Part shown: positions 3,268-14,744 of the stretch, piece by piece
Numbering within the stretch: the first letter of the stretch is position 1
Layout of the letters: each line of letters starts with the position of its first letter
Program-made: the position numbers and the translations under genes
The notes under the pieces: generated by a model
Told to the model about the DNA's origin: nothing
What the model saw: only the letters and a program-made list of their open reading frames with translations
The model's database searches: none
Source: Leisingera sp. S132
GTDB taxonomy: Bacteria; Pseudomonadota; Alphaproteobacteria; Rhodobacterales; Rhodobacteraceae
Reading direction: 5' to 3'
NCBI RefSeq assembly: GCF_025144465.1
Contig: NZ_CP083554.1
Span: forward strand, 1-64,000
Length of the DNA stretch: 64,000 nt

Positions 3268-3570
3268 TTATTCCGAAAGGAACGCCATCAGGTCCTGGCG
3301 GGCGTGCAGGATGCGGATGAGTTCCGGGCGGCCCTGTTCCAGGCGGTAGATCACCAGATGCGCGCCGGTGGGGTGGATGCGGACCGGGGGTGTGAACTCA
3401 GGCCGTTCACGAGCCATTTCAGGGAAATCCGCCAGCAGGTCGAACAGGGCAAACAGGCTGTCGGCATAGGCGTCGGCCTGCACCTCGCCCCAGGTTTCCA
3501 TGCCATAGCGCCAGATCGCGGCAAGGTCGTCGCGCGCGGCGGGGCGGATCCGCCAGCGCGGCTCAGCCAT
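3268..3570 (-). CDS. parE: RelE/ParE family toxin
   Basis: This 100-residue protein has the ParE toxin pattern: an N-terminal RIRPAARDDLAAIWRYG helix and a C-terminal strand segment VIYRLEQGRPELIRILHARQD. ParE toxins usually inhibit DNA gyrase, whereas RelE relatives cleave ribosome-bound mRNA; the sequence here resembles ParE more. Its start overlaps the end of the antitoxin gene by 8 bases, as is usual for translationally coupled toxin-antitoxin pairs. The antitoxin is made first. Confidence 0.88.
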   Translation of the reverse strand: MAEPRWRIRPAARDDLAAIWRYGMETWGEVQADAYADSLFALFDLLADFPEMARERPEFTPPVRIHPTGAHLVIYRLEQGRPELIRILHARQDLMAFLSE

Positions 3571-3799
3571 TGCGGCGCATGGCGGCCTTGAAATCTTCGG
3601 CGCTCAGCGCCTCGGCAGGGCCGCTGGCAAGGCCCGCGCCGATGGCGGATTGCAATTCGGCAATGGCGGCGGTGCGGGCCTGGTCGCGGCGGATCAGGTC
3701 GCGGACGTAATCGCTGGAATTGGCATAGGTGCCGGCGCGGGCCTGTTCTTCGACCCACGTTTTCATCTGCTCCGGCAGGGAGACGTTCATGGTGGCCAT
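3563..3799 (-). CDS. parD: ParD-like ribbon-helix-helix antitoxin
   Basis: This 78-residue antitoxin begins MATMNVSLPEQMKTWVEEQ. That is a typical CopG/ParD ribbon-helix-helix DNA-binding domain: strand NVSLP, then helices that include NSSDYVRDLIRRDQ. An acidic/alanine-rich C-terminal tail probably wraps the toxin. The start at 3799 is chosen because AAAGGAG lies 7 bases upstream; a longer in-frame ORF to 3904 has no such signal. ParD normally neutralises ParE and represses its own promoter, which should lie just upstream of position 3800. Confidence 0.87.
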   Translation of the reverse strand: MATMNVSLPEQMKTWVEEQARAGTYANSSDYVRDLIRRDQARTAAIAELQSAIGAGLASGPAEALSAEDFKAAMRRNG

Positions 3800-3890
3800 T
3801 GGCAGGCTCCTTTCGCTGAAACAGGATATGGCAATCTTTGCCATACTTGCAAGAGGAGCGGAATGGCGGGCGGAATCGCCCACCCTACGT

Positions 3891-3920
3891 AAAAAAGCCC
3901 GCAACCAGTCGTTGCGGGCT
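3891..3920 (-). terminator. Rho-independent terminator for the rhodanese-insertase-PEP synthase fusion gene
   Basis: A perfect 10-base-pair stem (AGCCCGCAAC at 3896-3905, GTTGCGGGCT at 3911-3920) with a 5-base loop is followed on the minus strand by six T residues (AAAAAA at 3891-3896 on the plus strand). It lies 22 bases past the stop codon of the gene ending at 3942 and separates it from parDE. Confidence 0.88.
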
Positions 3921-3941
3921 TTTCTAACGTGTCCGGGTGGA

Positions 3942-6900
3942 TCAGGCGGAAACCACTTTGAGGCCCTTTTCCTCCAGCGGCTGGATGGTGCCGTCTTCGC
4001 TGACGGTTACCTGCTCGCCATGCTCCAGGCTGTCGAGGCCCTTGCAGGCGACCAGCATCAGCACGTCCTTTTCGCGGGCGACGATGGCCATGTGGCTGAG
4101 CCAGCCGCCGACCTCGGACAGAACCGCGCCGGAGCGCTGGACGTATGGCAGCCAGGCCGGGTTCACCATGCGGCAGACCAGGATATCGCCGTCCTGGAAG
4201 TCTGCAAAGGCAGCCGGGTCGATGCAGCTGTCGTCCTCCATCCAGAACACCCGGGCGGTGGCGCTGCCGCTGCCCGCGACGCAGGTGCCGCCCATGGTGC
4301 CGTCACCTGCCCGGGCCTGGGCGCCGAGCGACAGCAGTTCGCATTCGCGCAGGGTGAGGCTGACGTCGGTGGGGGCGGATTTCTTGCGCAGGGCTTCTTT
4401 TTCTGCGCGGGCCTCTGCCAGTTCGCGGAGAGGCGCCGGGTTGGACCAGTTGCTGTCCAGAACTTCGGTGAAGGTCAGGCTGAATACCAGATCCTCCAGC
4501 CCGCTTACCTGACCCAGGGCCAGGAGGGCGCGGCGCAATTCGGCGACCACGCGCAGCGCCTCGTGCTTGGCCTGCTCCTTGAGGTCCTGATAGGCAATGG
4601 CGATGCCGATGGTATCGTCCAGCTCATCCGGCAGGTTGGCCGGGACCGGTACCGCGCCGATCGGTTCGACCGTGCTGCCAAGCAGCGACTGCAGCAGCGC
4701 CGGGGCCTCGCTGTAGCGGGGCGAGGACAGCTCGTAATCGAAGATCGAGCGGTGGCCCATCAGCTGCAGCGCGCGGGCCTGGGCATCCTTGCCGGTGCAG
4801 GAGGCGAGCAGGCTGGAGGGCGCATTGGGCAGTTCCGCGTGCATCAGATGCGCGCGCAGGGCCGGGTCGCCGGCCGCCGCCGTGCCGGCCTCGCCCATGG
4901 TGAAGCCTGCCAGGATGTTGATCTTTTCGGCCTCCAGATAGACCTCCTGGATGAACATGTCCTTGAGGGTGGAGACCGCTTCCAGCAGCTTGTCCTGAGG
5001 CAGCGCGGTGTAGTCCACGGCCTGCCAGATCGCCAGCTTGTCGCGCAGGGAAGGCATCACCTCGGTCCGGAAGCGGGTGATCATCGGATGCGCCTGCTTG
5101 CGCAGCTGCTTGGCCTTGGCGGCGGTGAGCTTGAGCGTCATGCCCTGTTTCAGCGCCACATCGACGTAGGTCTTGCCGAACAGGTTGACCAGATGGCCGT
5201 CGCGCCCCTCGGGCAGGCCATAGGGCACGCCGAGAGCACGGCAGGCGAGGTCGACGCTGCCGCCCGGCGCCCACAGCTCGCTCATCAGCGAGAAGGAGAG
5301 CGGGGTGGGGCGGGGCAGGACTTCGGACATCTCGTCCTGTTCCAGGATCGTCTGATCCGGGTCTGCGCCGGCGTAGCGGTCCAGCAGGCCGCGCCATTCG
5401 GCCAGCCGCGTCTGCTCCTCTGCGGTGCCCAAGGACAGCGTGGTGATATCGCGGCTCTGGACGATCTGGAACTGGCCGTTTGCATAGGCCCATTCGACGT
5501 CCTGCGGGCAGCCGAAGGTCTCCTCGATCTGCTTTCCAAGCGCCAGCAGCGGCGCCATGTCCAGCGTCTGGTCCTGATCCTCGGACGCGGGCAAGCCGGT
5601 ATAGCGGCCAAAGCGCAAGCTGGTCGGTGTGACGCGGCCGGACACCAGATCCTCGCCGCAGCCCTCGACCCATTCGATCATCGCCATGCCGGGGGCCATC
5701 GGGTCCTGGGTGAAGAGGACGCCGGCGTATTCCGCCTGCACCATTTCCTGCACCACGATATTGCCCTGATCGGTGCTGTCGCCCTCGCCGGAGTAGCTGG
5801 CCGCGCGCTCAGAGGAGAAGCTGGTCACAACTTCATCCAAGCCGGCGCGCATGGTGTCCGCTGTCACGTCCAATACCGATTCAAAGACGCCGGCAAAGCT
5901 CTGGTCGTGGCCGTCCTCGTTGCTGGCAGAGGAGCGCACGGCAACCGGTTTGCCGCCAGCAAGGGCAAAGACCTTGGCGGCAAAGGCGTCCTTTTTCGCG
6001 TCGGACATTTCGCGGTAGTCGTGGATCGCGTCGGAGCGCACGATCACGCCGCCCGGCACCGGCAGGCCGGCATTGCGCAGGATCGACAGGCGCAGGGCCT
6101 TGTTGCCGGCGTGCTCCAGCTCCTCGGTGTAGCCCATAGGGATCACCCCGCGCGGCAGTTTGGCAAGGCGGCGTTTGTGGGCGCGCAGGGCGATGGCTTC
6201 GCCCAGTTTGACATGCAGGCCTGTCACATAGGCGCGCTGCACCAGCAGGAGCGTCAGGCTGAAGCAGAGATAGGCATTGGCGGCGCCCGACAGGCTGAAC
6301 ACCATGGCAAAGAGCGCAGGCATGCCCAGCACCATCCACAGGGTTTTCTGGCGCGGCGTCTTGGCCACGGCCCAGAGCAGATAGACGGCGGCGAGCGCGC
6401 AGAACAGCACCGGCATGATGAACAGCGGGTCGGGCAGGCCGAGGTCGGCCATCCACAGGAACGGGGTCTGCAGGCTGGCGCTGGCCTCCTGCGCGGCAGA
6501 GACGCCCAGCATCATCACCGGCAGGAACAGCAGCGCGGTGAGGTTCTTCATCGGGGTCAGGCCCTTGTCCTTGTAGAACGCCTGCACCGCGCGCGCCTTG
6601 CGCACCGGGTCATGGGCCAGTTTCGCCTTCAGCGCCTTCATCTCATCCGCGGTCTCATTGGTGATGATCTGGTCGCGTTCGGATTTCAGCGCCACCGGCA
6701 GCACCAGGATGCGGGTCACGATCGACAGCACCAGCAGGCCCAGCAGGATATGGCTGCGCTCATGCACCCACAGCAGGGCGGTTGCCAGCGCCGAGATCGC
6801 CTTGTCCCAGAGGGTGGTCTGCTGGCCGGCCAGCCAGTCCTGCACATGCGGCTTGGGCTTGGGTGCGACGAAGTATTCCCATGGCAGGGTGTAGCGGCCG

Positions 6901-7976
6901 CGGAAGTCGATGCCCTGCTGCGACAGCTCCAGCCCCAGCACCTGGCTCATGAAGCAGCTGCGGCGGTCGTAGCAGGCGGCGATGGTGGGTTTTGAGGGGT
7001 CAAGCTCCGCGATGCGTGCCATGAGGTCGGCGGTGGTCATCTTGCGGATCGGGATGTTGACGGCGCCGGGGAGGTGGCCGGTTTCAAAGTCGCCGGGATA
7101 GCGGGTGTCGACGATTTGCAGGTCTTCGGTGGTCAGCAGGGTTTCAAAGTCTACGGTGCTGAGCAATACGTCCTTGCCGGGGTAGTCCGGGATCGCGCGC
7201 AGGTCAGAGAGGGTTTTCACGTCCTTGTCGGAGAAGTCGCGCCCCTCGACGATCCATTTCTCGATACCGCCCGCGATGAAGCTGCAGTCGATGCCCATTG
7301 CCGCCAGCTTGGCGCAGGTTTCCGAGCTGCGGTTGCCGTTGTGGCAGAACAGCACGACCTTCTGGCCGGGCTGAACCGGCTGGCTCTCTACGAAATCGGG
7401 GAAACGGATATGGGTGGCGCCGGGCAGGGTGCCCATGGCGTTTTCGCCGGTTTCGCGGATGTCATAGAACAGGGTGGAGCCGTCCTCCAGCGCCGCTGCG
7501 GCGTCTGCCGTGCTCATCGCCAGCGGGTGGTCCTCCTGCTTGGAAAAGCTGGTCTCCTTGAGAGAGGCATCCTTGATGGTGGTGCCGTCAAACTGCGCCG
7601 GCCGCGTCAAAGTGGCCTGCAGTCTTGCCAGCTCGGCCTGCTCGTGCGAGGAATACTGCCAGTAGTTGCCTGCGGCCAGTGCCACGGCTGCCAGCGCAAG
7701 GACGGAGATCAGCTTGACCGGGTAGCGGCGCGGTGAGTTGCCCGGCTTGGGAGTAAAACCAAGTTTTGCCGCAATGACTGCGCCCAAACCGGAAATCATG
7801 GCAATTCCCACGGCGAGAACCTGGGACAGCGAAGAGACCGAACCGATCACCAGTTCCGGCGAGGGAATGGCAAGGGCCGCAACCGGAAGCGCGGATAAAA
7901 GCGATGCCAGCACAACGGCTTGTGCTGAGCGGCGGACGGACCGGATGGTCCTGGAGGAAATAGAGGTTTGCTTCAC
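3942..7976 (-). CDS. Rhodanese x2 / YidC-Oxa1-like membrane / PEP synthase-like fusion protein
   Basis: This is a continuous 1344-residue protein with an unusual domain order. Two N-terminal hydrophobic segments (about 19-37 and 88-104) precede two rhodanese domains. The first has FCHNGNRSS with Cys211; the second has ACYDRRSC with Cys335. Residues of about 385-590 form several membrane helices in a YidC/Oxa1 insertase-like arrangement (for example SIVTRILVLPVALKSERDQ and FLPVMMLGVSAAQEAS). A PEP synthase/PPDK N-terminal ATP-binding domain follows at about 615-845 (AVRSSASNEDGHDQSFAG, VVQEMVQAEYAGVLFTQDP). Near the C-terminus a mobile phosphohistidine domain has GGWLSHMAIVARE with His1295. 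The start is GTG at 7976 with AGGAA upstream. Inference: a membrane enzyme coupling ATP/PEP phosphotransfer to sulfur or insertase chemistry. Substrate and role are unknown. It is divergent from a binding protein-kinase pair. Confidence 0.85.
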   Translation of the reverse strand: MKQTSISSRTIRSVRRSAQAVVLASLLSALPVAALAIPSPELVIGSVSSLSQVLAVGIAMISGLGAVIAAKLGFTPKPGNSPRRYPVKLISVLALAAVALAAGNYWQYSSHEQAELARLQATLTRPAQFDGTTIKDASLKETSFSKQEDHPLAMSTADAAAALEDGSTLFYDIRETGENAMGTLPGATHIRFPDFVESQPVQPGQKVVLFCHNGNRSSETCAKLAAMGIDCSFIAGGIEKWIVEGRDFSDKDVKTLSDLRAIPDYPGKDVLLSTVDFETLLTTEDLQIVDTRYPGDFETGHLPGAVNIPIRKMTTADLMARIAELDPSKPTIAACYDRRSCFMSQVLGLELSQQGIDFRGRYTLPWEYFVAPKPKPHVQDWLAGQQTTLWDKAISALATALLWVHERSHILLGLLVLSIVTRILVLPVALKSERDQIITNETADEMKALKAKLAHDPVRKARAVQAFYKDKGLTPMKNLTALLFLPVMMLGVSAAQEASASLQTPFLWMADLGLPDPLFIMPVLFCALAAVYLLWAVAKTPRQKTLWMVLGMPALFAMVFSLSGAANAYLCFSLTLLLVQRAYVTGLHVKLGEAIALRAHKRRLAKLPRGVIPMGYTEELEHAGNKALRLSILRNAGLPVPGGVIVRSDAIHDYREMSDAKKDAFAAKVFALAGGKPVAVRSSASNEDGHDQSFAGVFESVLDVTADTMRAGLDEVVTSFSSERAASYSGEGDSTDQGNIVVQEMVQAEYAGVLFTQDPMAPGMAMIEWVEGCGEDLVSGRVTPTSLRFGRYTGLPASEDQDQTLDMAPLLALGKQIEETFGCPQDVEWAYANGQFQIVQSRDITTLSLGTAEEQTRLAEWRGLLDRYAGADPDQTILEQDEMSEVLPRPTPLSFSLMSELWAPGGSVDLACRALGVPYGLPEGRDGHLVNLFGKTYVDVALKQGMTLKLTAAKAKQLRKQAHPMITRFRTEVMPSLRDKLAIWQAVDYTALPQDKLLEAVSTLKDMFIQEVYLEAEKINILAGFTMGEAGTAAAGDPALRAHLMHAELPNAPSSLLASCTGKDAQARALQLMGHRSIFDYELSSPRYSEAPALLQSLLGSTVEPIGAVPVPANLPDELDDTIGIAIAYQDLKEQAKHEALRVVAELRRALLALGQVSGLEDLVFSLTFTEVLDSNWSNPAPLRELAEARAEKEALRKKSAPTDVSLTLRECELLSLGAQARAGDGTMGGTCVAGSGSATARVFWMEDDSCIDPAAFADFQDGDILVCRMVNPAWLPYVQRSGAVLSEVGGWLSHMAIVAREKDVLMLVACKGLDSLEHGEQVTVSEDGTIQPLEEKGLKVVSA

Positions 7977-8032: not shown

Positions 8033-8209
8033 TAAAAGATTACGAAAACCTTACTGAAGGGTTAATATAGAGGCCGAAGAATAAAAGAACCGCAAAATTT
8101 TTCCGAGAATTGCAGGTGCGTTAACATTGTATTCTGATCTTTCTGCCATGTAACCAAGGAGCGCGGCCTGCCTGCCGTGCCAGCCGATGTCAGTCAGGAG
8201 GCTAGACTC

Positions 8210-9106
8210 GTGAAACTGTTTAAGTGGACCTTTGGTATCATTGCGATTTTCGGGACGCGGCTGCGGCGTGCCGTCCCAGGTGCGATTCTGGCGGCTTGGC
8301 TTGCGGCACTGCTGCCCGGCGGTTCCATGGCCGGAACCGAATTGGTATTCGGCACCTACGCAGCGGATAAACCAACCGCAACGGTCAAAAAGTACCAGCC
8401 GTTTCTGGCCTTCCTGGCCAAGCGGATGAGCGAGGAGCTGAGGGAGCCGGTCACCATCCGGCTGAAGATCGCCAAGGAATACGAGGAAGGCATCCGCCAG
8501 CTGGCCAGCGGCGAGGTGGATTTCTCAAGGTTCGGCCCGGCGTCTTATGTGCATGTGATGAAGGAAAACCCGGACGTCCGGATCATCGCCATGGAATCGC
8601 AGAACGGACAGAAGCGGTTCAAGGGGGTGATCGTGGTTCACAGCGACAGCACGGTGCAGTCGGTCGCGGACCTGGCGGGCCTCAGCTTCGCCTTTGGCGA
8701 TGAGCTGTCGACCATCGGCCGCTACCTGGCGCAGGAATATCTGCTGGACGCCGGCATCAGCAGTGCCGATCTGCTGGAATTTGCCTATCTCGGCCGCCAC
8801 GACCTGGTGGGCGAGGCGGTGGGCGCGGGCCGGTACACTGCGGGCGCCCTGAAGGAAAGCACCTACAAGAAGCTGGTCGCCAAGGGGGTGCCGATCCGGG
8901 TGCTGGCGTCCTTTGACAATGTGACCAAGCCCTGGCTGGCGTCGCCGGAGATGCCGGCAGAGGTGCTGGAAGCGATGCGCAAGGTGATGCTGTCCTCGGA
9001 AAACGAGGAGATCGTGCGCCGGATTTCAAAGAACGGCTTCCTGCTGGGGGACGATCACGATTATGACATCATCCGCCGGGCGATGGAGCGCAGCCTGGCC
9101 TTTTAG
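8210..9106 (+). CDS. PhnD/SsuA-like periplasmic binding protein
   Basis: This 298-residue exported protein resembles phosphate/phosphite/phosphonate-binding proteins. It has a mature start near [21 protein letters not shown], the lobe motif [16 protein letters not shown], and [21 protein letters not shown] basic, hydrophobic leader (about residues 1-40) ends near GGSMAG. The start chosen is GTG at 8210 because AGGAGG (8196-8201) is 8 bases upstream; the in-frame ATG at 8177 lacks such a signal. No ABC permease or ATPase is adjacent. Instead a hybrid histidine kinase follows after 17 bases, so a role as ligand sensor for that kinase is more likely than transport. The ligand is unknown. Confidence 0.82.
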
Positions 9107-9123: not shown

Positions 9124-11409
9124 ATGAAACGGACAAGCATTCTTTTCCAGATCGTGCTGTCGCTGCTGCTGGCGGCTTCGGCTGTCGGCTTGGTGGTCGG
9201 CGATCTGGCGCAGCGCCAGGAGGCGCAGCGGCTGGAAGAGCAGCTGGCGGAACAGGCGGATCTCACCGTTTCGCTGCTGAGCGGGCTGATGCTGGAATCG
9301 ATCATCGTCGAGGATGTGCCGGTGCTGGAAACCGGCCTGATCGAGGCCGTCACCCGCAAGCCGCAGATCGTGTCCATCCAGATCCGCAGCCCGGCAGGCA
9401 AACTGCTGGCGTCGGCTGAAGCGGCCGGCACGCCGCCTGACGGCGGCCGGGTCATGTATGAGCGGCCGATCGAGCTGGAAGGCGCGGTCTTCGGCACCAT
9501 GGTGGTCGAGTGGTCGACCCGGGAAGGCGAGGCGCTGGTGGCGGCCTCGGTGCGCCAGATCATCATCTGGACGGTGGTGCCGGTGCTGGTTCTGTCCTTT
9601 ATGGTGCTGCTGCTGGTGCATGGGCTGGCCCTGCGGCCGCTGCAGATGATCCACAAGCGGATGTCGGATGCGATTTCCGGCTTGCGCAGCCCGGCGGAAA
9701 GGCTGCCGTGGTACGCCTCGCGGGAGTTCCGGGCGTTGGATTTCTCGGTTGGCGTGCTGGAGGAAACCTTTGCCGAGCGGGACGAGCGCGAATTTGCGCT
9801 GGAGCAGGCGCGCGAGACGGCGGATATCGCCAACCGGGCGAAATCGGAATTCCTTGCCAATATGAGCCATGAGATCCGCACGCCGATGAACGGGGTCATC
9901 GGCATGGCGGAACTGCTGCAGGAAACCAGGCTGGACGAAGACCAGCAGATGTATGCGGAGACGATCTCCAAGTCGGGGTCCGCCCTGCTGACAATCATCA
10001 ACGATATCCTGAATTTCTCCAAGATCGAGGCCGGCAAGGTCGAATTCAGCATCGAAGCCTTCAACCTGCAGACTGCGGTCGAAGACGTGGTCACCCTGCT
10101 GTCGCCGAAGGCGGCGGAGAAGGGGGTCGAGATCACCATGCGCTATGACCCGGCCTTGCCCGAAGTGTTTGAAGGCGATGCCGGCCGGATCCGGCAGGTG
10201 ATCACCAATGTGGCGGGCAATGCCGTCAAGTTCACCCGCGAGGGGTATGTTTATATCGAGGTGACCGGGCAGCTGCAGGACTCCGGCAGCCACATGCTGC
10301 AGCTGCAGGTGCGCGACACCGGCATTGGCATTGAGCCGGCCCGTGTGGGCAAGATCTTCCGGGCCTTCGAGCAGGCCGACAACGCCGCCACCCGGAACTT
10401 TGAGGGCACCGGTCTGGGGCTGGCGATCACCTCCCGGCTGCTGGCGCTGATGGGCGGATCGGTGCAGGTGGAGTCGGAGCCCGGCAAAGGGTCCGTGTTC
10501 ACAATCCGCGTTCCGCTGCGGGCCGGCGGCCGCCCTGAAGCCGCGCCGGCGGGACGCCCGCAGAATTTCGCCGGGCTGCAGGGCCTGCTAGTGGATGATC
10601 TGGAGCTGAACCGGGTGATCCTGTCGGAACGGCTGAGCACCTGGGGGGTGTCCTGCACCCTGGCGGCATCTGCGCATGAGGGGCTGGAAATCCTGGCGGA
10701 TGCGCAGCTGGACGGGCGCCGGTTCGATTTTATTGTTCTGGACTACCAGATGCCGGCCATGGACGGGCGCGCCCTTGCGGCGCGGATCCGGTCGATGCCA
10801 GGCTTTGAGGCGGTGCCGCTGATCATCCTGTCGTCCGTGGAGCACGCGCTGAGCCGGGCCGACTGCGAGGCAATCGGAACCTGCGAATTCGCGCTGAAAC
10901 CGGTGCGGTCTGTGCAGCTGCGGCAGGTGCTTGAACGGGTGCTGAGCCTGCCGCCCGCCCGCAATGCGGACCCGGGTCCGGGCCGCAACGCCGGGCCGGG
11001 GTTGCCGGAACGCCGCCTGAAGCTGCTGCTTGCCGAGGACAACCGCACCAATCAGCTGGTGGTGACCAAGATGCTGAAGGATGCGCCGCTGGATATCACA
11101 ATTGCCAGGAACGGCATTGAGGCGGTGGCGCAGTTCCGCGCCGAACGGCCCGATATCGTGCTGATGGACATGATGATGCCGGAGATGGACGGGCTGGAAG
11201 CCACCACCCAGATGCGCCGGATCGAGGCCGCAGGCGGGGGCAAATGCCCGATCGTTGCGCTGACCGCCAACGCGCTGCAGGCGCACCGGGAAAAGTGCCT
11301 GCAGGCGGGCATGGACGACTTCCTGAGCAAGCCGATCAACAAGAAAGCCCTGACAGATGCGATCAGCAAATGGACGGGGGCCCCGGACCTGCAGCGCACG
11401 GGCAGCTGA
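9124..11409 (+). CDS. Hybrid sensor histidine kinase with two receiver domains
   Basis: This 761-residue inner-membrane kinase has a first membrane helix at about 7-27, a short periplasmic part to about 142 and a second helix at about 145-168. A linker leads to a HisKA domain with [11 protein letters not shown] and phospho-accepting His249. The ATPase domain shows [21 protein letters not shown] and GTGLGLAI. The first receiver has VLDYQMP with Asp540. The second has [11 protein letters not shown] with Asp682, preceded by AEDN. No Hpt or output domain is present, so a separate phosphotransfer protein is presumably needed. It lies 17 bases after the PhnD-like binding protein gene, so the two are probably co-transcribed and the binding protein may feed its periplasmic domain. 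The ribosome-binding site is weak. Confidence 0.9.
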
Positions 11410-11487: not shown

Positions 11488-12294
11488 CTAGCCGCGGCGG
11501 CGCTGCAGCAGCAGCCCGGTCAGGCTGGAAGCTGCGAACAGCCCGGCAGCAAAGCAGACGATGCTGGGGCCTGCGGGCGTATCCAGCACAAAGGCCAGCT
11601 GCAGCCCGCCGGTGGCCGCCAGCATCCCCAGCAGACCGGCAACGGCCGCCATGCGTTCCGGTGTTGCGGCAAAGGGGCGGGCCGCGGCCGCCGGGATCAG
11701 CAGCATCGCGGCAATCAGCAGCACGCCCACCACCTTGATCGCCACCGCCACCACCAGCGCCAGCGCGATGGTCAGCACCATCTGCTCGCGCCGGGGGTCA
11801 ATGCCGGCGGCATGGGCCAGATCCGGGTTCAGGGTGGCGGTCAGCAGCGCCGACCAGCGCCACCACAGCAGCGCCAGCACCAGCACCGCACCGCCCCAGA
11901 TCACTGCCAGGTCTGCCCGGCCCACGGCCAGGATGTCGCCGAACAGATAGGCCATCAGGTCGATCCGCACCCCCTGCAGAAAGGAAACCGCAACCAGGCC
12001 GAAGGCGAGCGAGGAATGCGCCAGCACCCCCAGGAGCGTGTCCATGGCATAGCCGCGCCCTGCAAGAGCCGATACCGTGGTGGCCATCGCCAGCGCGGTG
12101 GCCAGCACACCGGCAAAAACCGAGACATCAAAGCTGAGCGCCAGCGCCACGCCGAGGATCGAGGCATGCGCGGTGGCGTCGCCGAAATAGGCCATCCGGC
12201 GCCAGACCACGAAACAGCCCAAGGGGGCGGCGGCCAGGGCCACGCCGATGCCCGCCAGCGCGGCGCGGATCAGGAAATCGTCAAGCAGGGTCAT
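11488..12294 (-). CDS. znuB: Zinc ABC transporter permease ZnuB
   Basis: This 268-residue membrane permease of the metal (ABC-3) family should form the channel of the high-affinity zinc importer with ZnuA and ZnuC. It has about eight hydrophobic segments. The family stretch RRMAYFGDATAHASILGVALAL lies near the N-terminus and LLIAAMLLIPAAAARPFA in the second half. Its ATG overlaps the znuC stop by 4 bases, so it is translationally coupled as the last gene of zur-znuC-znuB. It is convergent with the hybrid kinase gene. Confidence 0.93.
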   Translation of the reverse strand: MTLLDDFLIRAALAGIGVALAAAPLGCFVVWRRMAYFGDATAHASILGVALALSFDVSVFAGVLATALAMATTVSALAGRGYAMDTLLGVLAHSSLAFGLVAVSFLQGVRIDLMAYLFGDILAVGRADLAVIWGGAVLVLALLWWRWSALLTATLNPDLAHAAGIDPRREQMVLTIALALVVAVAIKVVGVLLIAAMLLIPAAAARPFAATPERMAAVAGLLGMLAATGGLQLAFVLDTPAGPSIVCFAAGLFAASSLTGLLLQRRRG

Positions 12295-13043
12295 TCCGCC
12301 GCCTCATGGTGGTGATCGTGTTTGCAGTCGTGGTCATGGCTGTGGTTGTGCTCATGCCGGTAGAGCGCCAGGGCGCCTTGGGTTCCGGTGCCGAACAGCG
12401 CCCGGTATTCCGGGGCAGAGGCAACATGCTCCGGGGCGCCCTCGCAGCAGACATGGCCATTGAGGCAGATCACCCGGTCGGAGGCCGCCATCACCACATG
12501 CAGCTCGTGGCTGACCATCAGCACAGCGCAGCCCAGGTCCTGGCGGACCTTCTCGATGCGCTGGTAAAAAGCGGCAGAGCCGGGCTGATCGAGGCCTTGG
12601 GTCGCCTCGTCCAGGATCAGCAGCTGCGGATTGCACAGCAGCGCGCGGGCCAGCAGCACCCGCTGGAACTGGCCGCCCGACAGGCTGGCCATCTGCCGTG
12701 CCGCCAGATCGCCGGCGCCGGCCTGCTGCAATGCCTCCGCGGCGCGGGCGTCAGACACACGGTCCGGCAGGCTGAGGAAGCGGCGCACCGTCAGCGGCAG
12801 GGTGGGGTCGATGTGCAATTTCTGCGGCACATAGCCGATGCGCAGCCCCGGCGCCCGGGTGACGCTGCCGCGGGAGGGTTTCAGCGCCCCGATCACGCTG
12901 CGCAAGAGGGTGGACTTGCCGGAGCCGTTGGGGCCGACAACAGTGACGATCTCACCCGGGGCAATCGACAGGCTGACACCGGACAGTACCGTGTTGCCGC
13001 CATGGGCGACGGTGAGGCCGTCCAGGGAAATCAGGCTGCTCAT
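12291..13043 (-). CDS. znuC: Zinc ABC transporter ATP-binding protein ZnuC
   Basis: This 250-residue ATPase has Walker A GPNGSGKST, signature LSGGQFQRVLLARALL and Walker B LLILDEAT. It should energise ZnuB for zinc import. The start at 13043 overlaps the zur stop by 4 bases (ATGA); a longer in-frame ORF to 13184 only reads through zur and is rejected. The C-terminus ends in a histidine-rich tail (about eleven His among the last 22 residues, HEHNHSHDHD and on), typical of ZnuC and possibly metal-binding. The order zur-znuC-znuB, divergent from znuA, is common in alphaproteobacteria. Confidence 0.93.
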   Translation of the reverse strand: MSSLISLDGLTVAHGGNTVLSGVSLSIAPGEIVTVVGPNGSGKSTLLRSVIGALKPSRGSVTRAPGLRIGYVPQKLHIDPTLPLTVRRFLSLPDRVSDARAAEALQQAGAGDLAARQMASLSGGQFQRVLLARALLCNPQLLILDEATQGLDQPGSAAFYQRIEKVRQDLGCAVLMVSHELHVVMAASDRVICLNGHVCCEGAPEHVASAPEYRALFGTGTQGALALYRHEHNHSHDHDCKHDHHHEAAE

Positions 13044-13522
13044 GCGGCGGGCTTCTCTTGGCATTTGGGGCACAGGCCCTCGGCCTCGATTACCGCGCGT
13101 TCGATCACGAAACCTGCGTCGCGGGCGGCCTGGCCGAGCTGGCCCTGGGTGGGTTCGCGCTGCGCTTCGGCCACGGCGTCGCAAGCGCGGCAGATCAGGA
13201 AGACCGGCGCGTGGCTCTCGCCCGGATGGGTGCAGGCGATGAAGGCGTTCAAGCGCTCGATCTTATGGGCAAAGCCGTTTTTGACCAGGAAATCCAGCGC
13301 GCGGTAGGCGACGGGCGGTTGCGAGCCAAGACCCTCTTCGCGCAGCCGGTCGAGGATTTCATAGGCCCCCAGCGCGCGGTGTTCCTGCAGCAGGATCTCC
13401 AGCACCCGGCGGCGGACCGGGGTGAACTGCAGGCCTTCGGCCCGGCACTGGGCGTCCACGGCGGCGATGCCGTCCTGGATGCAGCTGCTGTGGTCGTGCG
13501 GGGCAAAGCCGATGGAGTCCAT
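13040..13522 (-). CDS. zur: Zinc uptake regulator Zur (Fur family)
   Basis: This 160-residue Fur-family repressor has an N-terminal winged helix (LQFTPVRRRVLEILLQEHRALGAYEIL; PPVAYRALDFLVKNGFAHKIE) and a metal-binding C-terminal half. The structural zinc site is visible as CRAC and CPKC. His-rich residues near the N-terminus (PHDHSS) may add a ligand. With zinc bound, Zur should repress both its own operon (zur-znuCB) and znuA, which starts 100 bases away on the other strand. The genetic context with all three transporter genes makes Zur more likely than Fur or Mur. Confidence 0.92.
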   Translation of the reverse strand: MDSIGFAPHDHSSCIQDGIAAVDAQCRAEGLQFTPVRRRVLEILLQEHRALGAYEILDRLREEGLGSQPPVAYRALDFLVKNGFAHKIERLNAFIACTHPGESHAPVFLICRACDAVAEAQREPTQGQLGQAARDAGFVIERAVIEAEGLCPKCQEKPAA

Positions 13523-13563
13523 GTCCGGGGTCCTTTGAGGCGGCGGCGGATTTACCGCTTGAT

Positions 13564-13580
13564 ATGTTATGTTATGACGT
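13564..13580. promoter_or_regulatory. Candidate Zur operator
   Basis: The zur-znuA intergenic region holds an imperfect inverted repeat ATGTTAT-GTT-ATGACGT (5 of 7 positions symmetric). It resembles the AT-rich TGTTATA-type Fur/Zur boxes of proteobacteria. It lies between the divergent starts at 13522 and 13623, where one Zur dimer could shut both promoters. A second TGTTATAA-like stretch follows at about 13597-13604. Confidence 0.55.
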
Positions 13581-13622
13581 TTATCAAGCCGCGTGATGTT
13601 ATAAGATTACATGGAGTGTGTC

Positions 13623-14744
13623 ATGCGGAAACCGGGGATGTGGACAGCCAGCGCGGCGGCCTTGCTGGCCGGGGCAGGGGCCGTGGCGGCAGAAGTGCCG
13701 CGTGTCGCGGCGGATATTGCGCCGGTGCACGGGCTGGTGGCGCGGGTGATGCAGGGGCTGGGTGAGCCAGCGCTGGTGGTGCCGCCCGGGGCCTCGCCGC
13801 ATGGCTATGCGATGCGCCCCTCGGAAGCGCGGGCGCTGGATCAGGCGGATCTTGTGTTCTGGCTGGGCGAGGCGCTGACCCCCTGGCTGGAAGCCCCGCT
13901 GGAAGAGCTGGCCGGCGATGCGCACAGGATTGAACTGCTGGAGGCTAGGGGCACCACGGTGCTGCCGTTCCGCGAGGGCGCACGGTTTGAGGCGCATGAT
14001 CATGGTGAGCATGACAATCACGGTCATCAGGAGCACGCCGGCGGCCATGAGGGTCATGCGGAACACGGTGAACATGGCGATCACGCCGAGGGGCATGAGG
14101 ATCATGACGGGCATGGTGATGGCCATGAGGGTCATGCGGATCATGACGGCCATGATCACGGGGCGCATACCAGCGCAGAAGGCCACGGCGGCCGTGAAGG
14201 CCACGAAGAGCATGCCCATGGCCATCACCATGAGGGCGCTGATCCGCATGCCTGGCTGCTGCCGGCCAATGCGCAGGTGTGGCTGGACGTGATCGCAGAA
14301 GAGCTGGCAGAGCATGACCCGGATAATGCGGCGGCCTACCGGGCCAATGCCGAGGCCGGCAAGCAGGAGATCGCGGAAACCGTTGCAACCGTCTCGGCCC
14401 AGCTGGCGCCGTTCCAGGACAAGCCGTTCATCGTGTTCCACGATGCCTACCAGTATTTCGAGCAGGGCTTTGGCCTGCAGGCCGCCGGGGCGATCTCGCT
14501 GAGCGATGCGGTGAAGCCGAGCCCGGCGCGGGTTGCTGAAATCCGGGATGTGGTGGCGGATCGGAAAGTGGCCTGCGTGTTCTCGGAGCCGCAGTTCAAC
14601 CCGGGGCTGGTTGCCACCGTGCTGGAAGGCACTGGGGCTGGAACTGCGGTGCTGGATCCGCTGGGGGCAGGGCTGGAGCCGGGGGCTGGCTTTTATCCGG
14701 CGCTGCTGCAGGACATCGGCGCGGCGATTGCCGGTTGCGAGTAA
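13623..14744 (+). CDS. znuA: Zinc ABC transporter substrate-binding protein ZnuA
   Basis: This 373-residue periplasmic zinc-binding protein has a signal peptide (basic start, hydrophobic core, cleavage near VAA-EVP). The three zinc-ligand histidines appear in DIAPVHGLV (His36), ASPHGYAM (His60) and DPHAWLLP (His209). Between the second and third lies a very long histidine/aspartate/glutamate-rich loop (about 125-203), longer than in most ZnuA proteins and thought to collect zinc. The start at 13623 has GGAG 6 bases upstream; an ATG at 13611 is less well placed. It is divergent from zur-znuCB and ends at a terminator hairpin. Confidence 0.94.
   Translation: MRKPGMWTASAAALLAGAGAVAAEVPRVAADIAPVHGLVARVMQGLGEPALVVPPGASPHGYAMRPSEARALDQADLVFWLGEALTPWLEAPLEELAGDAHRIELLEARGTTVLPFREGARFEAHDHGEHDNHGHQEHAGGHEGHAEHGEHGDHAEGHEDHDGHGDGHEGHADHDGHDHGAHTSAEGHGGREGHEEHAHGHHHEGADPHAWLLPANAQVWLDVIAEELAEHDPDNAAAYRANAEAGKQEIAETVATVSAQLAPFQDKPFIVFHDAYQYFEQGFGLQAAGAISLSDAVKPSPARVAEIRDVVADRKVACVFSEPQFNPGLVATVLEGTGAGTAVLDPLGAGLEPGAGFYPALLQDIGAAIAGCE
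13995..14231 (+). repeat. Low-complexity His-rich coding segment in znuA
   Basis: About 79 codons encode mostly His, Gly, Glu, Asp and Ala (GHEGHAEHGEHGDHAEGHEDH-type runs). At the DNA level this appears as degenerate CATGAxGGxCAT repeats. Such segments vary in length by slippage between relatives. It also creates spurious ORFs on the other strand. Confidence 0.85.

Follow-up and report, generated by a model that had tools for sequence, protein, structure and literature searches.

We analysed the first 64,000 nucleotides of contig NZ_CP083554.1 of Leisingera sp. S132 (the window), focusing on one minus-strand gene at 3942..7976, hereafter the fusion, which joins protein families that, to our knowledge, are ordinarily found apart. 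Its open reading frame starts with GTG, runs uninterrupted for 1344 residues and has homologues in the family and the genus. A Pfam search listed four families at E <= 1, all above their gathering cut-offs: PPDK_N (3e-34, two stretches, the best at residues 676-789), Rhodanese (PF00581; 9.8e-22, 77.8 bits, two stretches), PEP-utilizers (2e-14, residues 1260-1325) and the YidC family 60KD_IMP (2.7e-14, residues 412-584, 53.9 bits against a gathering score of 35). This confirms the single frame of two rhodaneses, a YidC-like unit, an ATP-grasp domain and a phosphohistidine domain that a preliminary description of this DNA had proposed, with the YidC-like unit detected by profile as well. In an NCBIfam scan, YidC, rhodanese-bearing and dikinase models matched and none of the best 25 of 52 matches reached its cut-off, so the parts belong to known superfamilies, with no named enzyme among the models listed. 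The closest solved structures by sequence are dikinases labelled as phosphoenolpyruvate (PEP) synthases, including PDB 5fbs, together with YidC chains and rhodaneses.

Along the chain (all coordinates on the minus strand), residues 1-36 (7869..7976) resemble a signal peptide in alignment and hydropathy, with a K/R-rich start, a hydrophobic core and an AxA preceding the invariant IPSPEL, and are predicted to be cleaved. Two hydrophobic segments follow (residues 37-107; 7656..7868; alignment and hydropathy), beginning beside AIPSPEL, an invariant motif of the fusions. The first rhodanese spans residues 156-242 (7251..7511; Pfam and alignment) and the second residues of about 271-370 (6867..7166; second Pfam stretch and alignment, with hand-set borders). 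The YidC/Oxa1 core with its invariant Arg422 occupies residues 412-584 (6225..6743), as found by Pfam, structure alignment and the alignment of 11 fusions. Behind it lie the ATP-grasp domain (residues about 605-848; 5433..6164; Pfam and alignments), a middle, acceptor-side region (residues about 851-1225; 4302..5426; from alignments that are of low confidence here) and the swivel phosphohistidine domain carrying His1295 (residues 1260-1325; 4002..4199; Pfam and alignments). The gene has its own intrinsic terminator, as had been described: a hairpin at 3891..3925 with z = -7.96 against 200 shuffles, absent from a simple scanner's list despite this score. The described ribosome-binding site before the GTG corresponds to a stretch resembling such a site, an AGGA 6 bases upstream that is retained in 8 of 9 aligned upstream regions.

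Cys211, Cys335 and His1295 stand where the preliminary description had placed them and are invariant in all 11 aligned fusions, the set used for invariance throughout. The loop of the first rhodanese has six residues, C211-H-N-G-N-R216, and is invariant; it has the canonical CX4R form of rhodanese loops. The second loop, C335-YDRRS-C341, does not have that form and reads C-X5-C. Cysteines 211, 221, 231, 335 and 341 are all invariant, and among the 11 other cysteines of the fusion only C1268 is, the remaining 10 being variable. The five invariant rhodanese cysteines make it plausible that the periplasmic side hosts redox or persulfide chemistry.

The fusion was found in 9 of 295 genomes of the family (its own included), each time as one open frame without inner stops, with matches that start no later than about residue 34, end no earlier than 1329 and show 41-100% identity. 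All 21 genomes searched in the genus have it as well: 19 carry it in one piece at close to full length, in another it is cut by a contig end (residues 60-1344), and in the last it is spread over two contigs. A further search of contigs gave 15 fusion loci, 13 of them whole; loci L011-L021, L023 and L024 entered the structure alignments, and L022 and L025, two pieces of one assembly, were left out. Only L012 and L021 of these 15 were included in the neighbourhood table. Plasmid records with a match numbered 195, of which 80 reached at least 80% coverage, and the full-length plasmid matches, among those listed, come from Leisingera, Phaeobacter and Tritonibacter. In the wider class the fusion occurred in 2 of 385 genomes, both from the same family, and the phylum search matched 5 of 398 genomes, three of the own family and two with the kinase part only. 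The replicon of the window (108,464 bases) is probably a plasmid, like the 108-109 kb Leisingera plasmids, and the fusion is presumably chromosomal in two genomes, the contigs that carry it there measuring 4.6 Mb and 0.99 Mb. In Phaeobacter inhibens DSM 17395 it is carried on pPGA1_262; a mutant cured of an entire 262 kb plasmid is described for P. inhibens (PMC5653290).

Comparison of the window's gene with five relatives gave ratios of nonsynonymous to synonymous substitution (dN/dS) of 0.00-0.19 in every segment from the first transmembrane helix through the His domain, against 0.70-1.61 for the 36 residues of the signal peptide (5 pairs). Purifying selection thus acts on all domains of the fusion. 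The rhodaneses are the best-conserved segments, with mean pairwise identities of 0.69 and 0.66 across the 11 fusions, and the three kinase parts lie at 0.45-0.57, the middle region at 0.45 being the lowest after the signal peptide. This is a conserved and constrained single-chain architecture, not an accident of assembly.

The membrane half and the kinase half

A profile of the N-terminal half detected YidC structures at 5e-14 to 5e-12 and matched 219 of 398 genomes of the phylum at E <= 1e-12; among the matches listed, all but three fusions and two genes of a split form (below) span the YidC stretch and its near surroundings only. The two split genes are part of that profile, so their strong scores with it arise by construction; independent support for them comes from the phylum search with the fusion, their Pfam scores and the ATP-grasp tree. 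60KD_IMP also scored above its cut-off in all three divergent fusions that were tested (38.9-44.7 bits). By sequence match, the fusion shares with YidC/Oxa1 structures (PDB 5mg3, 3wo6, 5y83) the core region, a groove arginine and a charged hairpin after the first core helix; the cytosolic hairpin and the GLTP region that follows both align to them. Arg422 aligns with R73 of S. mutans and with R366 of E. coli YidC, the latter described as the conserved groove arginine (PMC8920935), and is invariant in the fusions and in both split genes. The genome of Leisingera sp. S132 has another, apparently ordinary YidC frame of 615 codons, itself a weak match.

Topology was predicted by hand from hydropathy and charge counts. 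The ratio of K/R to D/E is 4:0 in the loop 71-84, 28:41 in the rhodanese region and 11:7 in 429-477, then 0:3 (497-518), 3:0 (538-547) and 8:3 (580-619) along the core, in which four segments stand out clearly by hydropathy and the last of them (548-580) could accommodate two helices. This alternation points to rhodaneses in the periplasm and a kinase in the cytosol, provided that 548-580 forms two helices as in YidC. If the topology is correct, the rhodaneses would take the place of the P1 domain of the insertases and the kinase that of their C-tail. On opposite faces of the membrane the two could not meet directly, and the suggested coupling between phosphoryl transfer and sulfur chemistry is unlikely to be a direct one.

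The kinase half is ordered as ATP-grasp domain, middle region and C-terminal His domain. A PEP synthase or pyruvate phosphate dikinase identity was rejected because the order differs, the His domain being C-terminal rather than central, and no match to the barrel-shaped PEP/pyruvate-binding domain was found in the fusion (Pfam, E <= 1). From the PEP synthase-like phosphotransferase of the preliminary description, the ATP-grasp and His domains are therefore retained and the PEP synthase architecture is not. PDB 5fbs, although listed as a PEP synthase, we take to be the rifampin phosphotransferase (RPH) of Listeria. Its numbering agrees with that of the described enzyme, in which ATP-grasp, middle and terminal His domains follow one another as in the fusion and unlike PEP synthase, and whose catalytic positions are given as Lys22, Arg117, Thr136, Glu297 and His825 (PMC4844700). 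Among the mutants described there, changes of Lys22, Arg117 and Thr136 lose resistance and a change of Glu297 leaves activity (PMC4844700).

Profile alignment to 5fbs pairs R681 with Arg117, S700 with Thr136 (a change from Thr to Ser), E828 with Glu297 and H1295 with His825, and K626 was paired with Lys22, which lies beyond the printed alignment, by motif and by eye. All five positions are thus kept or changed from Thr to Ser, and K626, R681, S700, E828 and H1295 are each invariant. Given these conserved catalytic residues, the kinase half is likely to be an active two-step dikinase, and we file the fusion as a variant of the RPH-type dikinases. RPH is described as phosphorylating a small organic molecule (PMC4844700), HpeHI of Rhodococcus as phosphorylating small organic molecules, and two-component relatives as acting on phenols (PMC12167813). 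The same may be expected of the acceptor of the fusion.

A split relative occurs in 2 of 78 genomes of another class, where a membrane gene of 633 or 639 residues overlaps a kinase gene by 4 bases; the kinase gene encodes 690 residues in one genome and is interrupted by a contig end in the other. Homologues split at a domain border, which the preliminary description would have taken as a refutation, were seen in this sister lineage only, as two adjacent, overlapping genes. The split membrane genes have an ALPTPD motif similar to AIPSPEL of the fusions, two hydrophobic segments and a YidC-like end, which matches YidC at 37.4 bits (above the cut-off of 35) in one and 24.1 bits (below) in the other. 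In a tree of the ATP-grasp domain, fusion and split kinases share a branch supported at 100/99 against 12 other rows, picked by eye from 11 plasmid records. Neither a match to the split form in plasmid records nor a PhnD-like protein in the two split genomes was found. A rhodanese in the split form is not claimed, the profile comparison giving a local E of 0.056 over the active-loop region alone, and the lack of a recognisable rhodanese in this lineage suggests that the core function may not depend on rhodaneses. From these two lineages, the constant core seems to be the transmembrane pair, the YidC unit and the kinase, with the rhodaneses as a roseobacter feature.

The sensor pair and the intergenic motif

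Divergently from the fusion, on the plus strand, lie a gene for a PhnD/PtxB-like periplasmic binding protein (8177..9106; PF12974, by Pfam and structure matches) and, as its next gene in place of transporter genes, a hybrid histidine kinase with two receivers (9124..11409; HisKA-HATPase-REC-REC, by Pfam). Pfam thus bears out the divergent solute-binding protein and hybrid kinase noted earlier. The two adjoin the fusion in 9 of 11 loci and so are not always beside it: in L035 a C-terminal kinase fragment is all that adjoins, and in L036 neither gene does. Most of the adjoining loci have the pair and the fusion in divergent orientation; in L037, the most diverged, they are convergent. In genome G019 the sensor pair and the fusion are on different contigs, and in G120 the kinase gene beside PhnD reaches a contig end and a separate contig has a C-terminal kinase fragment adjoining the fusion. 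The PhnD-like protein occurs in 10 of 295 genomes of the family, namely in 9 of 9 with the fusion and 1 of 286 without it. The fusion is tightly associated with the sensor pair.

The closest solved relatives of the PhnD-like protein are phosphite-binding PtxB, with weak matches to ArrX/AioX. PhnD-like proteins or domains of two-component systems are described as sensing arsenic oxyanions, tetrathionate and thiosulfate (PMC5908839, PMC5408782), and by analogy a sulfur or phosphorus oxyanion is a plausible cue here. As described in the same sources, AioX is a separate PhnD-like protein working with a histidine kinase, as in the window, whereas TtrS/ThsS carry the PhnD-like domain inside the kinase. 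AioX has Cys106 and the window's protein is without any cysteine. The window's kinase further differs from the AioX/ArrX and TtrS/ThsS systems: it is a hybrid that carries two receivers, and no DNA-binding regulator lies next to it.

The intergenic sequence between the fusion and the PhnD-like gene holds TTAACCCTTCAGTAA, and in this divergent promoter region the element TTAACNNTTCNGTAA lies on the minus strand at 8051..8065, its sole exact match in the genome. We presume a resemblance to a CtrA-like TTAA-N7-TTAA site, with one mismatch. Exact matches stand beside the fusion in 5 of the other 10 genomes searched and not in the remaining five: G200, G293 and G271 have no exact match, and in G120 and G019 the exact matches and the fusion are on different contigs; G1030 has an additional match. 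A reversed control pattern gave 3 matches in G271 and none elsewhere in the 11 genomes. The linkage and this conserved motif fit the earlier proposal that the fusion is the regulated output of the sensor pair; against it, Pfam gave no DNA-binding domain in the hybrid kinase, and no DNA-binding regulator was found adjacent.

A proposed membrane-anchored dikinase and its rivals

We tentatively read the fusion as a membrane-anchored, RPH-type, ATP-dependent dikinase of small molecules or lipids with an extracytoplasmic input. The chain would leave the cytosol after the signal peptide, with the tandem rhodaneses in the periplasm at the YidC P1 position, as charge bias and YidC homology suggest, and the YidC-like core, to which homology assigns five helices, would join them to a kinase that replaces the YidC C-terminal tail. 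By homology, the cytosolic half would transfer the beta-phosphate of ATP to His1295, yielding AMP and inorganic phosphate, and the His domain would then swing to the middle region and phosphorylate a small molecule or lipid. We propose that the rhodaneses may read or capture periplasmic thiol, sulfane-sulfur or oxyanion species, that the YidC-like groove may offer an amphipathic acceptor to the kinase or relay a gating signal, and that the PhnD-like protein and the hybrid kinase may sense an oxyanion and control the fusion gene.

Several observations weigh against this membrane-anchored dikinase. The acceptor pair of RPH, Arg666-Glu667, falls on K1133-E1134 with low alignment posteriors, at positions where K1133 is invariant and E1134 is kept in 10 of 11 fusions and D in one. 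The RPH equivalog NF041857 (NCBIfam) gives 131.5 bits against a cut-off of 999, a score that would exclude rifamycin phosphotransferase proper, and yidC_oxa1_cterm (TIGR03592, NCBIfam) gives 54.9 bits against 84.3. The last two core helices (548-580) are not cleanly separated, and one helix fewer would put the kinase outside. Structure models were uninterpretable, with mean pLDDT (predicted local distance difference test) of 42.6 and 45.5, so that topology and middle-region fold are both drawn from sequence alone. The p value for the co-occurrence of PhnD-like protein and fusion (Fisher p 2.4e-16) ignores shared ancestry, and strict dependence is argued against by genome G089, where the sensor pair is present but the fusion is not. 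The ATP-grasp tree carries a long-branch warning, and neither Pfam nor profile comparison recognised a rhodanese in the extracytoplasmic part of the split form.

Less probable, though the best-surviving rival, is a signalling role, in which the rhodaneses would be a periplasmic redox or sulfane-sulfur sensor, the YidC-like core would only relay their state and the kinase would make a phosphorylated signal molecule. The contrast between the five invariant rhodanese cysteines and the variable others, the rank of the rhodaneses as best-conserved segments above the kinase parts, and the link to the sensor pair all agree with it, but the groove arginine, needless in a passive linker, is kept, and the split lineage has no recognised rhodanese. 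In a more radical reading, which we think rather unlikely, the YidC/Oxa1 fold would form the membrane half of an enzyme instead of an insertase: after its capture or modification by the rhodaneses, a lipid-like or amphipathic substrate would be handed by the groove to the dikinase on the opposite face, which would amount to group translocation driven by the conversion of ATP to AMP and inorganic phosphate.

A specialised membrane-protein biogenesis factor, that is, a second YidC-like insertase whose rhodaneses and kinase modify or check clients, would account for the YidC homology, the conserved Arg422 and the aligned hairpin and GLTP region, and the other YidC frame of the genome would free a paralogue to specialise. 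Yet in both cases described, the substrates of RPH-type enzymes are small molecules (PMC4844700, PMC12167813) and the core falls below NCBI's YidC cut-off, and we consider this role distinctly unlikely. Still more improbable is a membrane-tethered enzyme that phosphorylates drugs or aromatics for self-protection or catabolism, like RPH or HpeHI, with the membrane part serving localisation only. Such an enzyme would share the domain order and catalytic residues of RPH, two-component relatives are described as acting on phenols (PMC12167813), and pPGA1_262 of P. inhibens, which carries the fusion, is described as encoding tropodithietic acid synthesis (PMC5421792); but the fusion is present in all 21 genus genomes, its own terminator keeps it outside any catabolic operon within the window, and local anchoring alone leaves the conserved rhodaneses and Arg422 unexplained. 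Chance or artefactual read-through of separate genes, which the usual separation of these families and the existence of a split form might suggest, is ruled out by uninterrupted relatives 41-96% identical and by the low dN/dS.

Compared with known systems, the fusion adds to the three domains described for RPH a signal peptide, transmembrane segments, rhodaneses and a YidC core; its middle region has diverged and the equivalog cut-off is far from reached. HpeHI is described as having an RPH-type mechanism with a His-bearing component, and it offers a precedent for split genes, although it divides the ATP-grasp domain from the rest, whereas the split relative of the fusion divides the YidC part from the whole kinase; as described, HpeHI has no membrane part, unlike the fusion (PMC12167813). 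A search of openly licensed full text, made without the gene's old locus tag, found no paper on the fusion among the titles listed, and literature with PGA1_262p02 locus tags, as far as its text was available, names other genes. If the membrane-anchored dikinase is correct, it would show the YidC/Oxa1 core in a role other than insertion, encoded by a gene that is kept by every genus genome searched and is deletable in the marine laboratory model P. inhibens DSM 17395. It would also be, as far as we know, the first membrane-spanning dikinase of the RPH/PEP-utilizer type.

The wider neighbourhood

A defence role was dismissed: PADLOC matched neither the fusion nor the binding protein, its one weak match lying in a receiver domain of the kinase. 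Downstream of the fusion, window positions 3268-3904, between the fusion and an RpiR-family gene, encode a ParE-family toxin (PF05016) and, upstream of it, a short partner that has no Pfam match. In L012 about 4 kb separate this pair from the fusion, and in L030 and L031 the pair was not seen. On the other side, a Zur-ZnuABC-like zinc uptake cluster (11488-14744) includes a ZnuA-like protein (13611-14744) with a long His/Asp/Glu-rich stretch, as in metal-binding loops. The cluster stands beside the triad in 7 of 11 loci (L012, L021, L030, L031, L032, L034 and L040) and zinc-uptake genes were not seen beside the fusion in L033, L035, L036 and L037, so that what persists is the triad of fusion, PhnD-like protein and hybrid kinase.

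In G089 (locus L074, C28), the divergent neighbour of the sensor pair is a 700-codon frame that resembles a coenzyme A transferase by eye. Further afield, locus L084 on pCP1 of Deinococcus radiodurans carries the PEP-utilizing and the PEP/pyruvate-binding parts as separate genes, with a transposase and a Qat defence gene close by. In locus L088 on pRlBT01c of Rhizobium leguminosarum, genes for a biotin carrier and a biotin carboxylase come after split dikinase genes, a set that by eye resembles a phenol- or ketone-carboxylating operon.

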